Assembly (NCBI RefSeq): GCF_004210375.1
Contig: NC_134833.1
Location: forward strand, 142,964,127-143,028,126
Length of the DNA stretch: 64,000 bases
DNA from: Tachypleus tridentatus
Taxonomy: Eukaryota; Arthropoda; Merostomata; Xiphosura; Limulidae
Reading direction: 5' to 3'
Below, piece by piece: positions 11,522-53,662 of the stretch; positions within the stretch are counted from its first letter, which is position 1; each line of letters opens with the position of its first letter. The notes beneath the pieces were generated by a model. The model searched no databases. It was given only the letters and a program-made list of their open reading frames with translations, and was not told the DNA's origin. A program made the position numbers and the translations under genes.

Positions 11522-11646
11522 TGTTGTTGTTTTAAATTAAGCACAAAGCTACTCAATGGGATATCTGTGCTCTGCTCACCACGGGTATCGAAACCCGATC
11601 TTTAGCGTTGTAAATCCGCAGACATACCGCTGAACCACTGGGGCTA
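11522..11646 (-). repeat. SINE family B with 11-bp TSD
   Basis: Full reverse-strand copy: TTGTTGTTTTAAATTAAGC tail, CACGGGTATCGAAACCCG, CAGACATACCGCTGAACCAC. The TSD TGCCGCCAACT is at 11511-11521 and 11647-11657. It interrupts the 87-bp tandem repeat. Confidence 0.93.
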
Positions 11647-11769: not shown

Positions 11770-12680
11770 TGCTTAGAGAAGCTGTGTACATGAACAAATA
11801 CTAATCATTTAATTACATAACTAAAAAAAAAAGAGAAGCGTTGAAGTAATGTTAATAAGTAAGGTAACTTTAAATAGCTTTAAGTCGGTATAATTTAACT
11901 GTAAGGCCTTTATATTTGTACAAACCTTGACGTACAAATTCACTGGGACTGGTATTATGTTCGGTAAGCACCAAGTTATCTGTGGATGGTTCAAAGAAAA
12001 AATATTGAAAACCACTTTAAACAGTAGTTGTTTAAAAGACCTAGGTTCACCTGATCTCAACCAGTGAAACTGTTGATGAATTATACAGTTACATAGCATA
12101 GTGCGAAACTAAAAACGGATTGTAATACACAATTCAAGTTGTTGATTTTCTATTGTATTATAACACAGTGGAGGAGACTTATTACTCACTACGACGTTTG
12201 TCAGTAATTCTACAAATTTCAACAGTGTCTGCTCTTTCACAGTTCTTTAATGTAAAGTTAATAGCTTACATTTTGTACGAAGTCAGAGTTCTGTAAATTT
12301 GTGTCAAGTTGTCAAAGTTGGTCGTGGTTTACATGTGTACAAATTCTATCTTTCTGAGTAACTTGTGTACAACTGAGTAATAAATAGCTGTGATATAGCA
12401 TCGTCATTGTCTCGTCATTTTTCTCCTGGCTAGGAAAATTAGTCCAAATAAAACTATTTATTCCTAGTTAACAATAGTTTTTAATACTAATTGTAAAACA
12501 TTTTAGTCCTAAACTTCGTAGCACACAATTTAAAGATATATAGTTAAATATCCTTTGCTGTTTCAAGACAGTTAAAGTTACAATGTAACTCTTGTAATGT
12601 TTTTAAAGACAGAATCACAATAGCAGTTAATTGTATCCTGATAGAATACGTTATTAATCAAAATGAAAGCTCGTTCTTTT
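11770..12680. other. Unannotated AT-rich spacer
   Basis: The open frame on - at 11821-12099 has no family resemblance and no splice context. Nothing else recognised. Confidence 0.4.
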
Positions 12681-31970: not shown

Positions 31971-33329
31971 TTAAGATGTGATTCCAGACAACTTTTTCAT
32001 GGCCTTTGGATTTAGTTGAATGATCAGAACTCCGTAGCTAATAACAGCTCCAAGAACAGTCAACATAAAACCTCTATTGATGATGAAAACGTTCCATGCT
32101 GATAAACCAACCACAGAGGAATTCAGCTGAGTAACTAAAAGTTCTGCTTGAATATTGTAGGGGTGGTCCGTAGTTGGATGAATACAAATTGTATTCTGCA
32201 GACTATGAAGAACATCATGAGCTTCTTCATTGACGAGAGAGGATAGAACGGATAACATTATGAAGAAGACAACTATATACAAGATCCGCAAGCCGTAGAA
32301 AATTCCACCAGCAAGAGTGGACATTTCCTCAACGTCACTTCTCAACAGGGCTGTGATCTCTACACAAAAGCTAGTTATGATTGTGGCGTACCAGATGAAA
32401 ACCATCCGAGTGAATAGTTCATCGAATCTAGTCACAAATGCTGCTAGTTGCGAATGCAAGACGCGCATCAACTGAAGATCTGTAGCAGTTACTGGTCGGG
32501 TATTATCGGCCACAAATTTCCGAAACTGATTATTGAAGTGTTGAAAATTAAGTCTCAGAGAGGTGCAGATGGACAAGAAAAAGGCTATGAGAAAGGTGAG
32601 AACTCCCCAAGCAAAGTAATTACTGAGGTTCCAGTCACTTAGAACTAGCAGGTATGCTGCAATGGACCCGTTTACTGTTTGAGAGCCGTAATAGTGATCT
32701 TCCAAATACTCGTGAACTGGAACTTCTGGTACCACGTAGTTCGTAGACGTGAGCGCTAATAACATATAAAACCATACACCCAACGTCAAAATAGAGACTT
32801 GCCTTGTCAGTTGGCGTGATTTTTCAGGACTTAGCAGTTGACTAAAGGATTCCATTTCAGCCACAAGGTCCCACATTCTTTTCCGATTGACTAAGTACAT
32901 GTCGGCGGTGACACTAGCGGCGATGTTGCGAAGGACCAACGTCATGTTTTCCCACAAATGTTGCCAGTGCCAGATGCACACTGCGATCATATGCAGGGAG
33001 TAGATGTGAAGAAAACATACCACCAGCCCTGTCCATATGACGCTGATATACCAACTTAAAGAATCTCTCTTTCTCGGTATTTGAAGTCCCATTGAAAAGA
33101 AAGACAAAAGAAGAAGCCGATAAGGTCGAAGTTCATAGTTCCCTAATTGATCTCCAGTCATCTGTTGTTTATGATCCTGACTAGCACGTTTCTTTTTTAT
33201 TTTGGACCGGTTATGGCCTAACAGTCTTCTAAAATTTTCAAATAACGTTGCTTCTTTCTTTTCTTGGGCAACATTATTCTGAACTTGCTGAAATACTACG
33301 GCATCGCTGTAGTTTCCAAAACGAATCAT
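31971..33329 (-). CDS. Gustatory receptor (7tm_7 family), intronless
   Basis: A 452-residue open frame of the insect-type gustatory receptor superfamily, which form ligand-gated cation channels in chemosensory neurons. There is no signal peptide. After a long, basic cytoplasmic N-terminus (KIKKKR near residue 43) and the RPYRLLLLSFFSMG motif, hydrophobic spans lie near 92-120, 128-147, 178-200, 238-260, 308-329, 345-366 and 420-440. The last span, ISYGVLIIQL, aligns with the family signature TYhhhhhQF, with Ser for Thr and Leu for Phe. Length is slightly above the usual 350-450. The start is the first in-frame ATG; AG precedes it, so an upstream exon is possible. Most family members have introns; a single exon here may reflect intron loss or retrocopying. 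Ligand unknown. Confidence 0.9.
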   Translation of the reverse strand: MIRFGNYSDAVVFQQVQNNVAQEKKEATLFENFRRLLGHNRSKIKKKRASQDHKQQMTGDQLGNYELRPYRLLLLSFFSMGLQIPRKRDSLSWYISVIWTGLVVCFLHIYSLHMIAVCIWHWQHLWENMTLVLRNIAASVTADMYLVNRKRMWDLVAEMESFSQLLSPEKSRQLTRQVSILTLGVWFYMLLALTSTNYVVPEVPVHEYLEDHYYGSQTVNGSIAAYLLVLSDWNLSNYFAWGVLTFLIAFFLSICTSLRLNFQHFNNQFRKFVADNTRPVTATDLQLMRVLHSQLAAFVTRFDELFTRMVFIWYATIITSFCVEITALLRSDVEEMSTLAGGIFYGLRILYIVVFFIMLSVLSSLVNEEAHDVLHSLQNTICIHPTTDHPYNIQAELLVTQLNSSVVGLSAWNVFIINRGFMLTVLGAVISYGVLIIQLNPKAMKKLSGITS

Positions 33330-39063: not shown

Positions 39064-39790
39064 ATACATTTCTTAATATGAAGCTTTGTTAGATGACAGT
39101 TGTTATCGTTCCTTAAAATTAAGCTTTATTCGATGGTAATTGTCATACATTTCTTAATATGAAGCTTTGTTAGATAACATTTGTTATCGTTCCTTAAAAT
39201 TAAGCTTTATTGGATAGTAACTGTCATACATTTCTTAATACGAAGCTTTGTTAGATGACAGTTGTTATCGTTCCTTAAAATTAAGCTTTATTCGATGGTA
39301 ATTGTCATACATTTCTTAATATGAAGCTTTGTTAGATGACAGTTGTTATCGTTCCTTAAAATTAAGCTTTATTGGATAGTAACTGTCATACATTTCTTAA
39401 TACGAAGCTTTGTTAGATGACAGTTGTTATCGTTCATAAAATTAAGCTTTATTCGATGGTAATTGTCATACATTTCTTAATATGAAGCTTTGTTAGATGA
39501 CAGTTGTTATCGTTCCTTAAAATTAAGCTTTATTCGATGGTAATTGTCATACATTTCTTAATATGAAGCTTTGTTAGATGACAGTTGTTATCGTTCCTTA
39601 AAATTAAGCTTTATTGGATAGTAACTGTCATACATTTCTTAATACGAAGCTTTGTTAGATGACAGTTGTTATCGTTCATAAAATTAAGCTTTATTCGATG
39701 GTAATTGTCATACATTTCTTAATATGAAGCTTTGTTAGATGACAGTTGTTATCGTTTCTTAAAATTAAGCTTTATTCGATGGTAATTGTC
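39064..39790. repeat. Dimeric 81-bp tandem array, 9 units
   Basis: Units start at 39064, 39145, 39226, 39307, 39388, 39468, 39549, 39630 and 39710. Each unit is two related halves of about 40 bp (TTCTTAATATGAAGCTTTGT and CCTTAAAATTAAGCTTTATT). Two variants (TTCGATGGTAATTG and TTGGATAGTAACTG) alternate, giving a higher-order pattern. Confidence 0.95.
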
Positions 39791-45666: not shown

Positions 45667-47116
45667 AAAGTATCACGATTAGGCTAATAGACGTATGGTA
45701 TATTATTAATATTATACTAACACACATCTACATAAATTTTTTATGTAAATTGAACGACAAATAAACTGTTTATAAACAAATAACCAAAAATAGGTGGAGC
45801 AGAAGGTGTTGGTACAGTTCAGAACGTGTGAAAAAACTGATATTCCCGTAAAAATTTTGTTTAGTTTGGCGAATAAACTACATTATACCATTCCAGAGCT
45901 AGACACTGAGTTCATAATTATTGGAATTTAGCCAGCAAAACATTTACTTCCGGCAATTTAGCGCCGTCTCCATTATCTGCTTGGCCATCATGGCGAATAG
46001 GATACAACTATCCAGTGATCTAAAAAACCGAATTATTGTGAAATACAAGTCTCGTGTGGCTCTTTCTGGTATTGCTACACAACTTAATATGCCGACATCT
46101 ACTGTTCAAAGCATGATTGCAAAGTTTAAGCTTACAGGATCAACTGCTAACCTCCCTCGTTCTGAACGCCTCACCAAAATTCCAGAGAGAACCAAGAAGG
46201 TTCTCAGAGAAGCTAGTAGGAATCCTCGTCTAACACGTAATGACATACAGAAACTGGTAAGGGAAACTGGGGTTGAAGTAAGCACCTCTATTGTTACGAA
46301 CATGTTACGCTCTTTTGGGTTCAAAGCGTGCCATTCTTGTAGATCTCTTTATTTAAAGCCTCTTCATTTAGAAGCACGATTGAAGTATGCAAAAAAAGCA
46401 TGTAGATAAACCCTTTACCTATTGGAAGAGTATTCTTTGGTCAGACGAGACTAAAATCGAGCTTTTCGGCCACAATGATGTTCGCAATATTTTCCATAAG
46501 AAGGGGGGAACAAAATCTTCCAAAGAACAACATCCCTACAGTTAAACATGGAGATGGCTCGATCATGCTATGGGGTTCTTTCAGCTCTTCTGGTGTAGGC
46601 AGCCTTCACCGCGTCAACAGAATCATGAAAAAAGAAGAGTACGTTGATATATTAGGCACTTATATCATTGTGGAGTGGCCATCACAGTTACCCGATCTCA
46701 AACCAATTGAAAACGTCTGGCATGAGTTGAAGACCGGGGTTCATCAGCGTCATCCGAAAAACGTGCAAGAGTTGGAGGCCTTCCGTGAAGAAGAATGGAA
46801 GAAAATACCAGTCGAGCACTGTCATACAATCATGGAGGGCTATGAGGAGAGATTGTGCCAAGTAATTCACCTGAAAGGCTACACAACTGACCATTAAAAG
46901 TAGAAGCACGAACACTTTCTGCCCCTCCTATGTTTGGTTATTTGTTTATAAACAGATTATTTGTCGTTCAATTTACATAAAAATTTATGTAAATATGTGT
47001 TAGTATAGTATTTATAATATACCGTACTTTTGTTATCCTAATCATGATACTTTTTTAAGTTATGAGGAAAAAACTACTCACGACGCAGGGGTACGAACAC
47101 TTTTTGTCGTAACTGT
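45667..47116 (+). mobile_element. Tc1-like transposon, second family, left end truncated
   Basis: Inverted repeats about 45667-45830 and 46905-47054 share TATGTAAATTGAACGACAAA and TGTTTATAAACAAATAACCA. The right end continues about 62 bp further to a TA at 47115-47116; the left counterpart is missing. It encloses a broken transposase. Confidence 0.88.
45990..46897 (+). pseudogene. Tc1-like transposase, two frameshifts and a catalytic-site deletion
   Basis: The protein starts MANRIQLSSDLKNRIIVKYK with a paired-like DNA-binding region (GIATQLNMPTSTVQSMIAKF, then ASRNPRLTRNDIQKLV) in one frame to 46409. It shifts frame before ILWSDETKIELFGHND (first catalytic Asp) and shifts again before NNIPTVKHGDGSIMLWGSFS. 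The segment that carries the second catalytic Asp (DNDPKHT in relatives) is missing between DILGT and WPSQLPDLKPIENVWHELK, which carries the third acidic residue. The C-terminus is complete (CQVIHLKGYTTDH). It is inactive. Tc1/mariner DDE family is secure. Confidence 0.92.
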
Positions 47117-50418: not shown

Positions 50419-50625
50419 ATAATATCTGCACAGGACAGGTACTGGGACAGTTATAATGATTGTTGTTTTCATTGTGATTCCAGTCAAAGTCTACATCTGT
50501 GCTACACCATGCAACTGTCTCTCCCTCTTCCATAACACATGACATACTGGTCACAAGCAAACCAGAGTAAGTAACAGGTATAACACAGGTCCTGTTTAGC
50601 CGATCAGTTGTTTGATTGTAACACA
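50419..50625 (-). CDS. Lectin gene exon encoding a fibronectin type II-like domain
   Basis: Begins after an acceptor ending CACTAG and stops at donor ATTAT|GTAAGT; 207 bp, phase 1 on both sides. After a short Cys-containing lead (CYNQTTDRLNR) it encodes TCVIPVTYSG, SMSC, TVAWCSTDVDFDWN and HYNC. This is the C-x-x-P-x-x-Y...C...WCST...F-D...C pattern of a fibronectin type II module, with all four cysteines. In mannose-receptor-family proteins this module binds collagen or gelatin. Those proteins place it before the lectin domains, whereas here it follows two CTLD exons in transcription order. An extended Asn- and His-rich loop (NHNENNNHYN) is unusual. Assignment is by motif; no alignment was run. 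Confidence 0.7.
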
Positions 50626-51079
50626 CTAGTGGTAGAATGAAGAAATAAAATATTCACATCATGAGAACAAGAACACAATGACAAAAGAAAATAGGTCTTT
50701 GCTGAAGTTACTACAACAATTGCAGAGTAAGATAACTACAATATCAGGATAAAAAATCAAATGTTTATCCATCACATTAAATATTTGTCTAAAACTGTAA
50801 AAATATAAAGTATAAGCCACAATTTGAGTATAAAAGTACCTAAGAAGTTATAAACTGAAAAGTAATTTTATCATTCACAGCTTAAGATCAGTTCACTGAG
50901 TTTAAGATCAAAATAAGCAACTAGAAGTCTGAAAAATACAATTATCTGATTTTTCTTCATTTATCTTTGTTGAAGAGATGCAGCAATAAACAAACACAGA
51001 AGATATGTTGAAGCTTAAAAATTCACTTTTAAATTAAGTTCTATCCCTTATCCATTATATGTTCACCTGCATTATTCCT

Positions 51080-53220
51080 AACAAATGTCCTCACCTTAGA
51101 AATAACATTACATTGTTGTTACATGAAATCAGATATTCTTACCTTAGTACAGGTAGAAATAAAATAAAATTACATTGTTGTTCTACAAAAGTCAGATATC
51201 CTTATCTTATTACTGGTAAAAATAAAATTACATTGTTGTCACATGAAGTCATATATTCTTACCTTAGGTAGAAATAAAATAAAATTACATTGTTGTTGTA
51301 CACAGCCAGATATTCTTATCTTAGTACAGGTAGAAATAAAATAAAATTACATTGTTGTTGTACACAGCCAGATATTCTTATCTTAGTACAGGTAGAAATA
51401 AAATAAAATTACATTGTTGTTGTACAAAGCCAGATATTCTTACATTAGTACAGGTAGAAATAAAATAAAATTACATTGTTGTTGTACAAAGCCAGATATT
51501 CTTACCTTAGTACAGGTAGAAATAAAATAAAATTATATTGTTGTTGTACAAAGCCAGATATTCTTACCTTAGTACAGGTAGAAATAAAATAAAATTACAT
51601 TGTTGTTCTACAAAGTCAGATATCCTTACCTTAGTACAGGTAGAAATAAAATAAAATTACATTGCTGTTGTACAAAGTCAGATATCCTTACCTTAGTACA
51701 GGTGGAAATAAAATAAAATTACATTGCTGTTGTACAAAGTCAGATATCCTTACCTTATTACTCACAGAAATAAAATTGCATTGTTGTTACATGAAGTCAG
51801 ATATTCTTACCTTATTACTGGTAGAAATAAAATAAAATTACATTGTTGTTACATGAAGTCAGATATTCTTACCTTATTACTGGTAGAAATAAAATAAAAT
51901 TACATTGTTGTTACATGAAGTCAGATATTCTTACCTTATTACTGGTAGAAATAAAATAAAATTACATTGTTGTTACATGAAGTCAGATATTCTTACCTTA
52001 TTACTGGTAGAAATAAAATAAAATTACATTGTTGTTACATGAAGTCAGATATTCTTACCTTATTACTGGTAGAAATAAAATAAAATTACATTGTTGTTAC
52101 ATGAAGTCAGATATTCTTACCTTATTACTGGTAGAAATAAAATAAAATTACATTGTTGTTACATGAAGTCAGATATTCTTACCTTATTACTGGTAGAAAT
52201 AAAATAAAATTACATTGTTGTTACATGAAGTCAGATATTCTTACCTTATTACTGGTAGAAATAAAATAAAATTACATTGTTGTTACATGAAGTCAGATAT
52301 TCTTACCTTATTACTGGTAGAAATAAAATAAAATTACATTGTTGTTACATGAAGTCAGATATTCTTACCTTATTACTGGTAGAAATAAAATAAAATTACA
52401 TTGTTGTTACATGAAGTCAGATATTCTTACCTTATTACTGGTAGAAATAAAATAAAATTACATTGTTGTTACATGAAGTCAGATATTCTTACCTTATTAC
52501 TGGTAGAAATAAAATAAAATTACATTGTTGTTACATGAAGTCAGATATTCTTACCTTATTACTGGTAGAAATAAAATAAAATTACATTGTTGTTACATGA
52601 AGTCAGATATTCTTACCTTATTACTGGTAGAAATAAAATAAAATTACATTGTTGTTACATGAAGTCAGATATTCTTACCTTATTACTGGTAGAAATAAAA
52701 TAAAATTACATTGTTGTTACATGAAGTCAGATATTCTTACCTTATTACTGGTAGAAATAAAATAAAATTACATTGTTGTTACATGAAGTCAGATATTCTT
52801 ACCTTATTACTGGTAGAAATAAAATAAAATTACATTGTTGTTACATGAAGTCAGATATTCTTACCTTATTACTGGTAGAAATAAAATAAAATTACATTGT
52901 TGTTACATGAAGTCAGATATTCTTACCTTATTACTGGTAGAAATAAAATAAAATTACATTGTTGTTACATGAAGTCAGATATTCTTACCTTATTACTGGT
53001 AGAAATAAAATAAAATTACATTGTTGTTACATGAAGTCAGATATTCTTACCTTATTACTGGTAGAAATAAAATAAAATTACATTGTTGTTACATGAAGTC
53101 AGATATTCTTATCTTATTACTGGTAGAAATAAAATAAAATTACATTGTTGTTACAAGAAGTCAGATATTCTTACCTTATTACTGGTAGAAATAAAATAAA
53201 ATTACATTGTTGCTATGAGA
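51080..53220 (-). repeat. 62-bp tandem array built from an exon-donor boundary
   Basis: About 34 head-to-tail units of 62 bp. About 21 central units (51.83-53.14 kb) are essentially identical; those at the low-coordinate end vary. On the gene strand each unit contains TTTCTACCAGTAATAAG|GTAAGAATATC. This aligns with the adjacent exon end TTTCTGTCAGTACCAAG|GTATGGACATT, and the intron continuation aligns too (GTAACAACAATG with ATAGCAACAATG). The array fills about four fifths of the intron between the CTLD exon at 53237 and the FN2-like exon at 50625. Confidence 0.95.
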
Positions 53221-53236
53221 AAGCAAATGTCCATAC

Positions 53237-53662
53237 CTTGGTACTGACAGAAATAAAAAATTTCTTCACCATGTGCAACCTGGAACCAATTGTATGTGGG
53301 TGGCATCAAAGCAACTCCAATGCCTCCCTGAATCTTTCTCTCCAAGTGAGATTCAGAAGAGTACCAGTTAGTGTACCTGTTTTGGTGACGTCCTACTATA
53401 GGATAATTGTACCAATCTTCAATGTTCATTTTGTACTTTAACCCCAGCCAAAAAGATGGAGATTTCTTCACTGAGTCATTACTGTGAAACTGTACATGCT
53501 TGCTAAGAATAAGTTGTGAGAAACTGCCATGTGGAACTGCTAGATCCCTGAACATGTGGTCTTCACACAACTGATGAGCCTCTTTTTCTGTTACCAAATC
53601 AGCATTAACAAGATAGCACTTTCCACCTATAAAAACACCGTCCCCTTCACACTGTAGGTTAC
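53237..53662 (-). CDS. C-type lectin domain exon (5th in window)
   Basis: Acceptor TTTTTTCAG, donor CCAAG|GTATGG; 426 bp, phase 1-1. It encodes a CTLD of about 140 residues: LQCEGDGVFIGGKCYLV, EKEAHQLCEDHMFRDLAVPH, SFWLGLKYK, then GIGVALMPPTYNWFQVAHGE and IFYFCQYQG. The conserved cysteines near both ends are present. The long-loop Ca-binding motifs (EPN or QPD) and the WND triplet are not seen, so calcium-dependent sugar binding is doubtful. The donor at 53236 is the first member of the adjoining 62-bp tandem array. Confidence 0.88.

Follow-up and report, generated by a model that had tools for sequence, protein, structure and literature searches.

The window, by which we mean the whole stretch of 64,000 nucleotides of the horseshoe crab Tachypleus tridentatus analysed here, carries on its minus strand a run of CTLD-like exons, one of which ends at the border of a long tandem array (Table 1). 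With 20.3 bits (E 0.00097) this exon lies under the Pfam cut-off of 22.6 for Lectin_C, and the four other CTLD-like exons of the window that were tested lie over it (25.9 to 48.4 bits). A first-pass annotation, made from the letters of the window, had called it the fifth CTLD exon, which agrees with the window yet not with the locus, where two further Lectin_C matches stand upstream. At its 3' end the exon reads TTT TAT TTC TGT CAG TAC CAA G, coding for F-Y-F-C-Q-Y-Q, and the intron between exon end (53237) and the start of the next coding exon (50625) measures 2611 nt. The latter exon looks, by eye, like a fibronectin type II domain, with no Pfam match for FN2 at E 0.01. Elsewhere in the window there are an intronless open frame of 452 codons matching the 7tm_7 chemosensory receptors (31974-33329, minus strand; E 1.3e-11) and pieces of a Tc1-like transposase in two frames (45918-46897, plus strand), including HTH_Tnp_Tc3_2 in 45918-46406. 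Coagulogen marks the genome as a horseshoe crab's: the profile PF02035 has 19 matches in it and 0 in 14 control genomes, and one coagulogen exon agrees with chain 1aoc, from Tachypleus tridentatus, at 47 of 48 positions.

Table 1. Features of the array-bearing gene and of two tandem repeats on C10. Positions without a prefix are those of the window; a slash marks the exon-intron boundary.
Feature	Position	Strand	Detail
Upstream Lectin_C matches	C9:143032115 and C9:143034666	same strand as gene	Lectin_C profile matches
CTLD-like exon, its 3' end the seed of the array	53237..53662	-	phase-1; between TTTTTTCAG and AAG/GTATGG
Authentic GT donor, AAG/GTATGG	53235..53236	-	U1 duplex -6.2 kcal/mol
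Edge unit with the authentic donor (21 exonic and 41 intronic nt)	53196..53257	-	48/62 against majority unit
Tandem array	51100-53212	-	TRF: period 62, 34.3 copies, 95% matches
Donor copies	from 53174 down to 51094	-	
20 consecutive identical units	51832..53071	-	each with TTTATTTCTACCAG, TAATAAG and GTAAGA
More diverged units, downstream side	51080..51831	-	four of the five array sites without GT or last exonic G
Last donor-like copy, AAG/GTGAGG, far end of array	51092..51097	-	
AG of downstream acceptor	50626..50627	-	TTCTACCACTAG; CACTAG before exon
Next coding exon	50419..50625	-	in phase with CTLD exon (frame continuity)
Second exon-seeded array (L076)	C10:5194286-5190942		74 bp x 45.4, 83% matches; starts inside Lectin_C exon
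Tandem repeat over probable donor (L022), exon before L076	C10:5195143-5195252		42 bp x 2.6

The array and its kinship with the exon-intron junction

With its head-to-tail units of tens of bp and high identity, the array is a minisatellite. Cutting it by unit yields, with the exon edge included, 35 units, 31 of them exactly 62 nt long, which fall into 15 distinct types; the run of identical central units, previously put at about 21, is there and counts 20. On the plus strand of 51100-53212, which is antisense to the intron, AATAAA occurs 68 times, about two per unit. A search of the 2.17-Gb genome for the unit's 35-nt core (up to three mismatches) found 25 places, all within this array, against 0 for the reversed control, and a 401-bp query gave nine matches, all at the array locus. 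Since both queries are confined to that locus, we rule out a dispersed satellite or a transposon-borne repeat; genome-wide, the 62-bp array was found at no unrelated locus, which leaves standing the claim of an array made from the gene's own splice site. Another array in the window (39064-39790, 81 bp) is likewise unique to its own locus, so that birth in place appears to be the usual route in this genome.

The proposal that the 62-bp unit is homologous to the exon-intron junction, with the authentic donor in the edge unit of the array, is borne out by the match of that edge (53257-53196) to the majority unit at 48 of 62 positions, when the best of 62 registers in 5000 dinucleotide shuffles had a mean of 27.0 and a maximum of 35. 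Taken separately, the intron part matches at 31 of 41 positions (shuffle maximum 27) and the exon part at 17 of 21, a value also reached by the best of 5000 shuffles, so the exon 21-mer by itself, in free register, is marginal. A stricter test, in which the register was fixed by the neighbouring unit and both the donor consensus (-3..+6) and the 17 intronic bases adjoining the array were excluded, gave 24 matches in 36 positions; 200,000 shuffles had a mean of 11.4 (sd 2.56) and a maximum of 23, with 0 reaching 24, and the gene's other five donors in the window scored 12-14. At lag 62 the match runs about 23 nt into the exon (19/25) and drops to 10/35 beyond that point, and a 62-mer scan over the rest of the window found 36/62 at best. 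In-register homology beyond the splice consensus, the hallmark of a minisatellite seeded by a splice junction, is thus seen here (24/36) as well as in the C10 array described below (47/55).

Could an intronic minisatellite resemble the neighbouring splice site by chance? That the exon 21-mer in free register equals its best shuffle and no more, and that the consensus is common to donors, would allow for it; but the similarity outside the consensus, which none of the 200,000 shuffles matched and the other donors do not approach, and the second such array on C10 make coincidence a scarcely credible account, and on the shuffle tests in free and fixed register we reject it. Similarity no better than that of shuffled sequence had been named in the first-pass annotation as grounds to abandon the homology; the shuffles fall short of the observed match, and the homology stands.

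As to the ancestral state of the junction, no array-free paralogue that might show it was found: the exon's protein matches itself alone, and a query of three exons returned ten matches, three in the gene itself and seven at 29-34% identity. Neither does the far-end copy qualify as a keeper of the ancestral sequence, a possibility we dropped on finding 15/24 matches between edge and far end and 13/24 between majority unit and far end, when unrelated places in the window reach up to 16. The presumed order of events, with the exon first and the array second, rests on the CTLD motif.

A second array on C10 and the survey of CTLD exons

Outside the donor consensus, the unit consensus of the array on C10 (L076) matches its true junction at 47 of 55 positions (50,000 shuffles: mean 14.1, maximum 28); the intron that follows this exon we infer from donor and phase. 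Most of its units run from a CTAAC-like motif through a pyrimidine tract and TGTCAG to a GT placed 7 nt further on, and with the exon included there are 43 CAG-N7 modules, 40 with GT and 41 with a branch-like motif upstream. The authentic C10 donor scores -9.6 and just 5 of the 39 other GT copies are as strong. Between the 62-bp and the 74-bp units no similarity is detectable (score 10; null mean 7.4, maximum 15). Judged from sequence, the C10 case shows that exon-end seeding would have happened independently at a second lectin gene and that it recurs, an array of the same make pointing to a repeated event in a minisatellite-rich genome. Indeed, minisatellites crowd this genome; tandem arrays with a period of at least 20 lie within about 1.5 kb at 18 of 34 CTLD loci.

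Our lag test took in 74 fetched CTLD loci, equal to 71 distinct exons (L021/L029, L026/L039 and L027/L063 coincide), and of the 95 Lectin_C rows the survey takes in 71; two more rows are exons of the window, and 22 rows, as well as L023-L025, fall outside its scope. Three of the 74 loci gave a donor-side signal with z > 6, namely L076, L022 and L083. The repeat at L022 opens with the end of the exon, ACACACAAATG/GTAGGTTA; in its copies the sequence is changed to AATGTTAGG, which makes a weaker donor. L083 was rejected as a donor-spanning array, for its repeat begins 100 nt after the domain with the donor outside it. On the acceptor side a single locus exceeded 6: L067 (C13:186972000-186973800), where a strong tandem signal of period 126 lies beside the CTLD exon, perhaps a mirror case with the array at the 3' splice site.

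Genome-wide, three spaced copies of AGGTAAG occur at 12,064 places (4987 + 7077) and their reversed control at 11,589 (7730 + 3859), and TGTCAG-7-GTAAG-TGTCAG occurs at 92 places against 664 for its reversed control, all counts referring to overlapping places and not to arrays. This census gives no support for general selection of donor arrays.

Splice signals in the units and what they may do

Counting the authentic one there are 36 donor-like sites, 32 of which have GT; 26 of these read AAG/GTAAGAAT. With AAG/GT present in the edge unit and the majority of copies, the duplicated segment carries the AG/GT required for intron gain by tandem duplication. The copies lie in sense orientation, as had been said, and the view that every one of them is a strong donor, arguably better than the authentic site, holds for 30 of the 35 (U1 duplex -9.5 to -10.1 kcal/mol, compared with -6.2 for GTATGG) though not for the rest, which include sites without GT. 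The authentic site is itself the second weakest among six donors in the window (weakest -6.1). Strong sites number about 14 per kb in the array (30 in 2.16 kb); on the rest of the same strand, where 17 of 3865 GT sites reach -9.5 or better, the figure is 0.27 per kb. Were the copies pure passengers, one would hardly expect the authentic donor to be outdone by most of them. Among unit types, 3 of 25 changes fall into the donor 9-mer and 40 of 63 nine-column windows have as few or fewer, so conservation in the donor columns is unremarkable; the few changes in four-fifths of these columns could reflect weak selection, in a comparison whose 14 inner unit types give it low power.

Because the exon end itself (F-Y-F-C-Q, T-rich, with CAG 7 nt before the donor) resembles an acceptor, the copies carry an acceptor-like site too. 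Twenty-two array units are complete modules of pyrimidine tract, CAG, 7 nt and GTRAG donor, and none was found elsewhere in the window on either strand; a looser count with the exon edge included gives 25 CAG-N7 modules, 23 of them with GT. Recursive splice sites join acceptor and donor at zero nt, and here 7 nt separate CAG and donor in all 22 modules, the triplet directly abutting the array donors being AAG or, in one unit, AAT. On C1 (1080861-1081633), repeats of about 48 bp have TTCTTGACAG/GTAAGT, in which an acceptor-like sequence abuts the donor; they resemble ratchet points in tandem more closely than does the array of the window.

These signals can be read in several ways. The array might act as a copy-number dial: the share of messages truncated or decayed through the use of copy donors or through intron retention would scale with array length, and alleles of different length would set receptor output. 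Consistent with this, most copies outdo the authentic site as U1 partners (30/35), all 31 array donors, when joined to the next exon, predict one and the same tail of 11 residues (GMDICFLIATM) followed by a stop, and the 20 identical units suggest a recent change in length. At C10, however, the authentic donor surpasses most of its copies (5/39 reach -9.6), which means stronger decoys are not general, and the basis is one assembly; to our minds such a dial is unlikely. The uniform tail also contradicts the earlier suggestion that variable exon extension would yield variable proteins. Another suggestion was that the array recruits U1, either shielding the transcript from premature polyadenylation or titrating the snRNP. 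The density of strong sites given above speaks for this; against it, neither AATAAA nor ATTAAA occurs in sense orientation within the 2611 nt of the intron, leaving the shield without a local target, even if more distant signals could exist, and such arrays are not in excess genome-wide. U1 is abundant, and its titration by one gene is implausible. Altogether we give recruitment or titration very little credence.

Alternatively, the units may be working splice modules through which the intron is removed stepwise, by recursive splicing or as chains of 7-nt microexons. In favour of this are the 22 full modules confined to the array, a strict CTRAY upstream within reach in 22 of the window's modules, the C10 array with its retained GT (40/43) and branch-like motifs (41/43), and about ten diverged units with AAG/GTAAGA and no CAG, which would add no extra bases. 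Yet a single 7-nt insert is predicted to break the frame, the protein ending after about 10 residues, the window's mini-intron would be just 55 nt, and the strict CTRAY found there (CTGAC) follows the donor at a distance of some 10 nt, too near to serve it. Moreover, ratchet points in flies, in the account of PMC8605326, require a following cryptic exon. We regard working modules as improbable, and hold similarly small expectations for a wider idea: lectin-domain exons would be natural seeds of self-contained splice modules, their last codons (F-x-F-C-Q) doubling as a pyrimidine tract and a CAG that stands 7 nt ahead of the donor, so that each unit made by duplicating the exon end could be an intron; the dozens of such modules in two genes might be spliced stepwise or as microexons taken three at a time to keep the frame, and output would depend on copy number.

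The reading we favour, and consider probable, is that of a passenger minisatellite which was seeded by the splice junction, is tolerated at the price of some unproductive splicing, and recurs at C10. A 62-bp segment that joins the closing ~21 nt of the CTLD exon to the ~41 nt at the start of its intron would have undergone tandem duplication, after which unequal exchange or slippage would have raised the number of copies to about 35; the 20 units observed to be identical were presumably homogenised recently. The weak authentic donor is most likely still preferred, in keeping with PMC9225289, which describes, for alternative sites in large introns, that those closest across the exon are favoured. 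Some transcripts may nevertheless use copy donors, acquire the 11-residue tail and stop, and be lost or truncated. Array copy number may in this way mildly lower output.

In the literature titles and abstracts searched, such an array was not described for a horseshoe crab, which is no proof of absence. The human 6-16 minisatellite reportedly contains multiple splice donors and sits next to an exon. Our array is like it in having units with splice donors beside an exon, and unlike it in unit length (62 bp, or 74 bp on C10), in copy number (~35-45) and in an acceptor-like site that often comes with the donor, all donors here being putative. Related cases are gathered in PMC4974935, which presents the Rogers model, where introns are gained when a segment bearing AGGT is duplicated in tandem, for potato RdRp, fish ATP2A1 and 24-bp repeats in fission yeasts: tandem copies with AG/GT are common to those examples and ours, the potato duplication also crosses an intron-exon boundary and the fission yeasts have several copies, but in the horseshoe crab the segment straddles a donor that already existed, and its copies add to the length of the intron already there. 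Human duplicated genes, as portrayed in PMC2812944, have variable internal tandem repeats at exon-intron boundaries with units averaging 30 bp in about four copies; growth of a minisatellite at such a boundary, with possible new introns, is shared with our arrays, which are far longer. Recursive splice sites or ratchet points, as treated in PMC8605326, likewise place acceptor and donor close together within an intron, whereas those discussed here, read from sequence, stand 7 nt apart in 22 units, many in tandem at a spacing of 62 nt. New with respect to these precedents are the size of the arrays, a unit that pairs an acceptor-like site with a donor, and the independent occurrence of such arrays at the ends of two CTLD exons.

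For splice-site choice, the locus offers a natural test in which a weak authentic 5' splice site faces about 30 stronger copies in one intron, and the C10 array an independent replicate with mostly weaker copies. It also bears on the debate about intron gain by tandem duplication: in CTLD exons the acceptor-like part comes from the coding end, so that a single duplication provides both splice signals.
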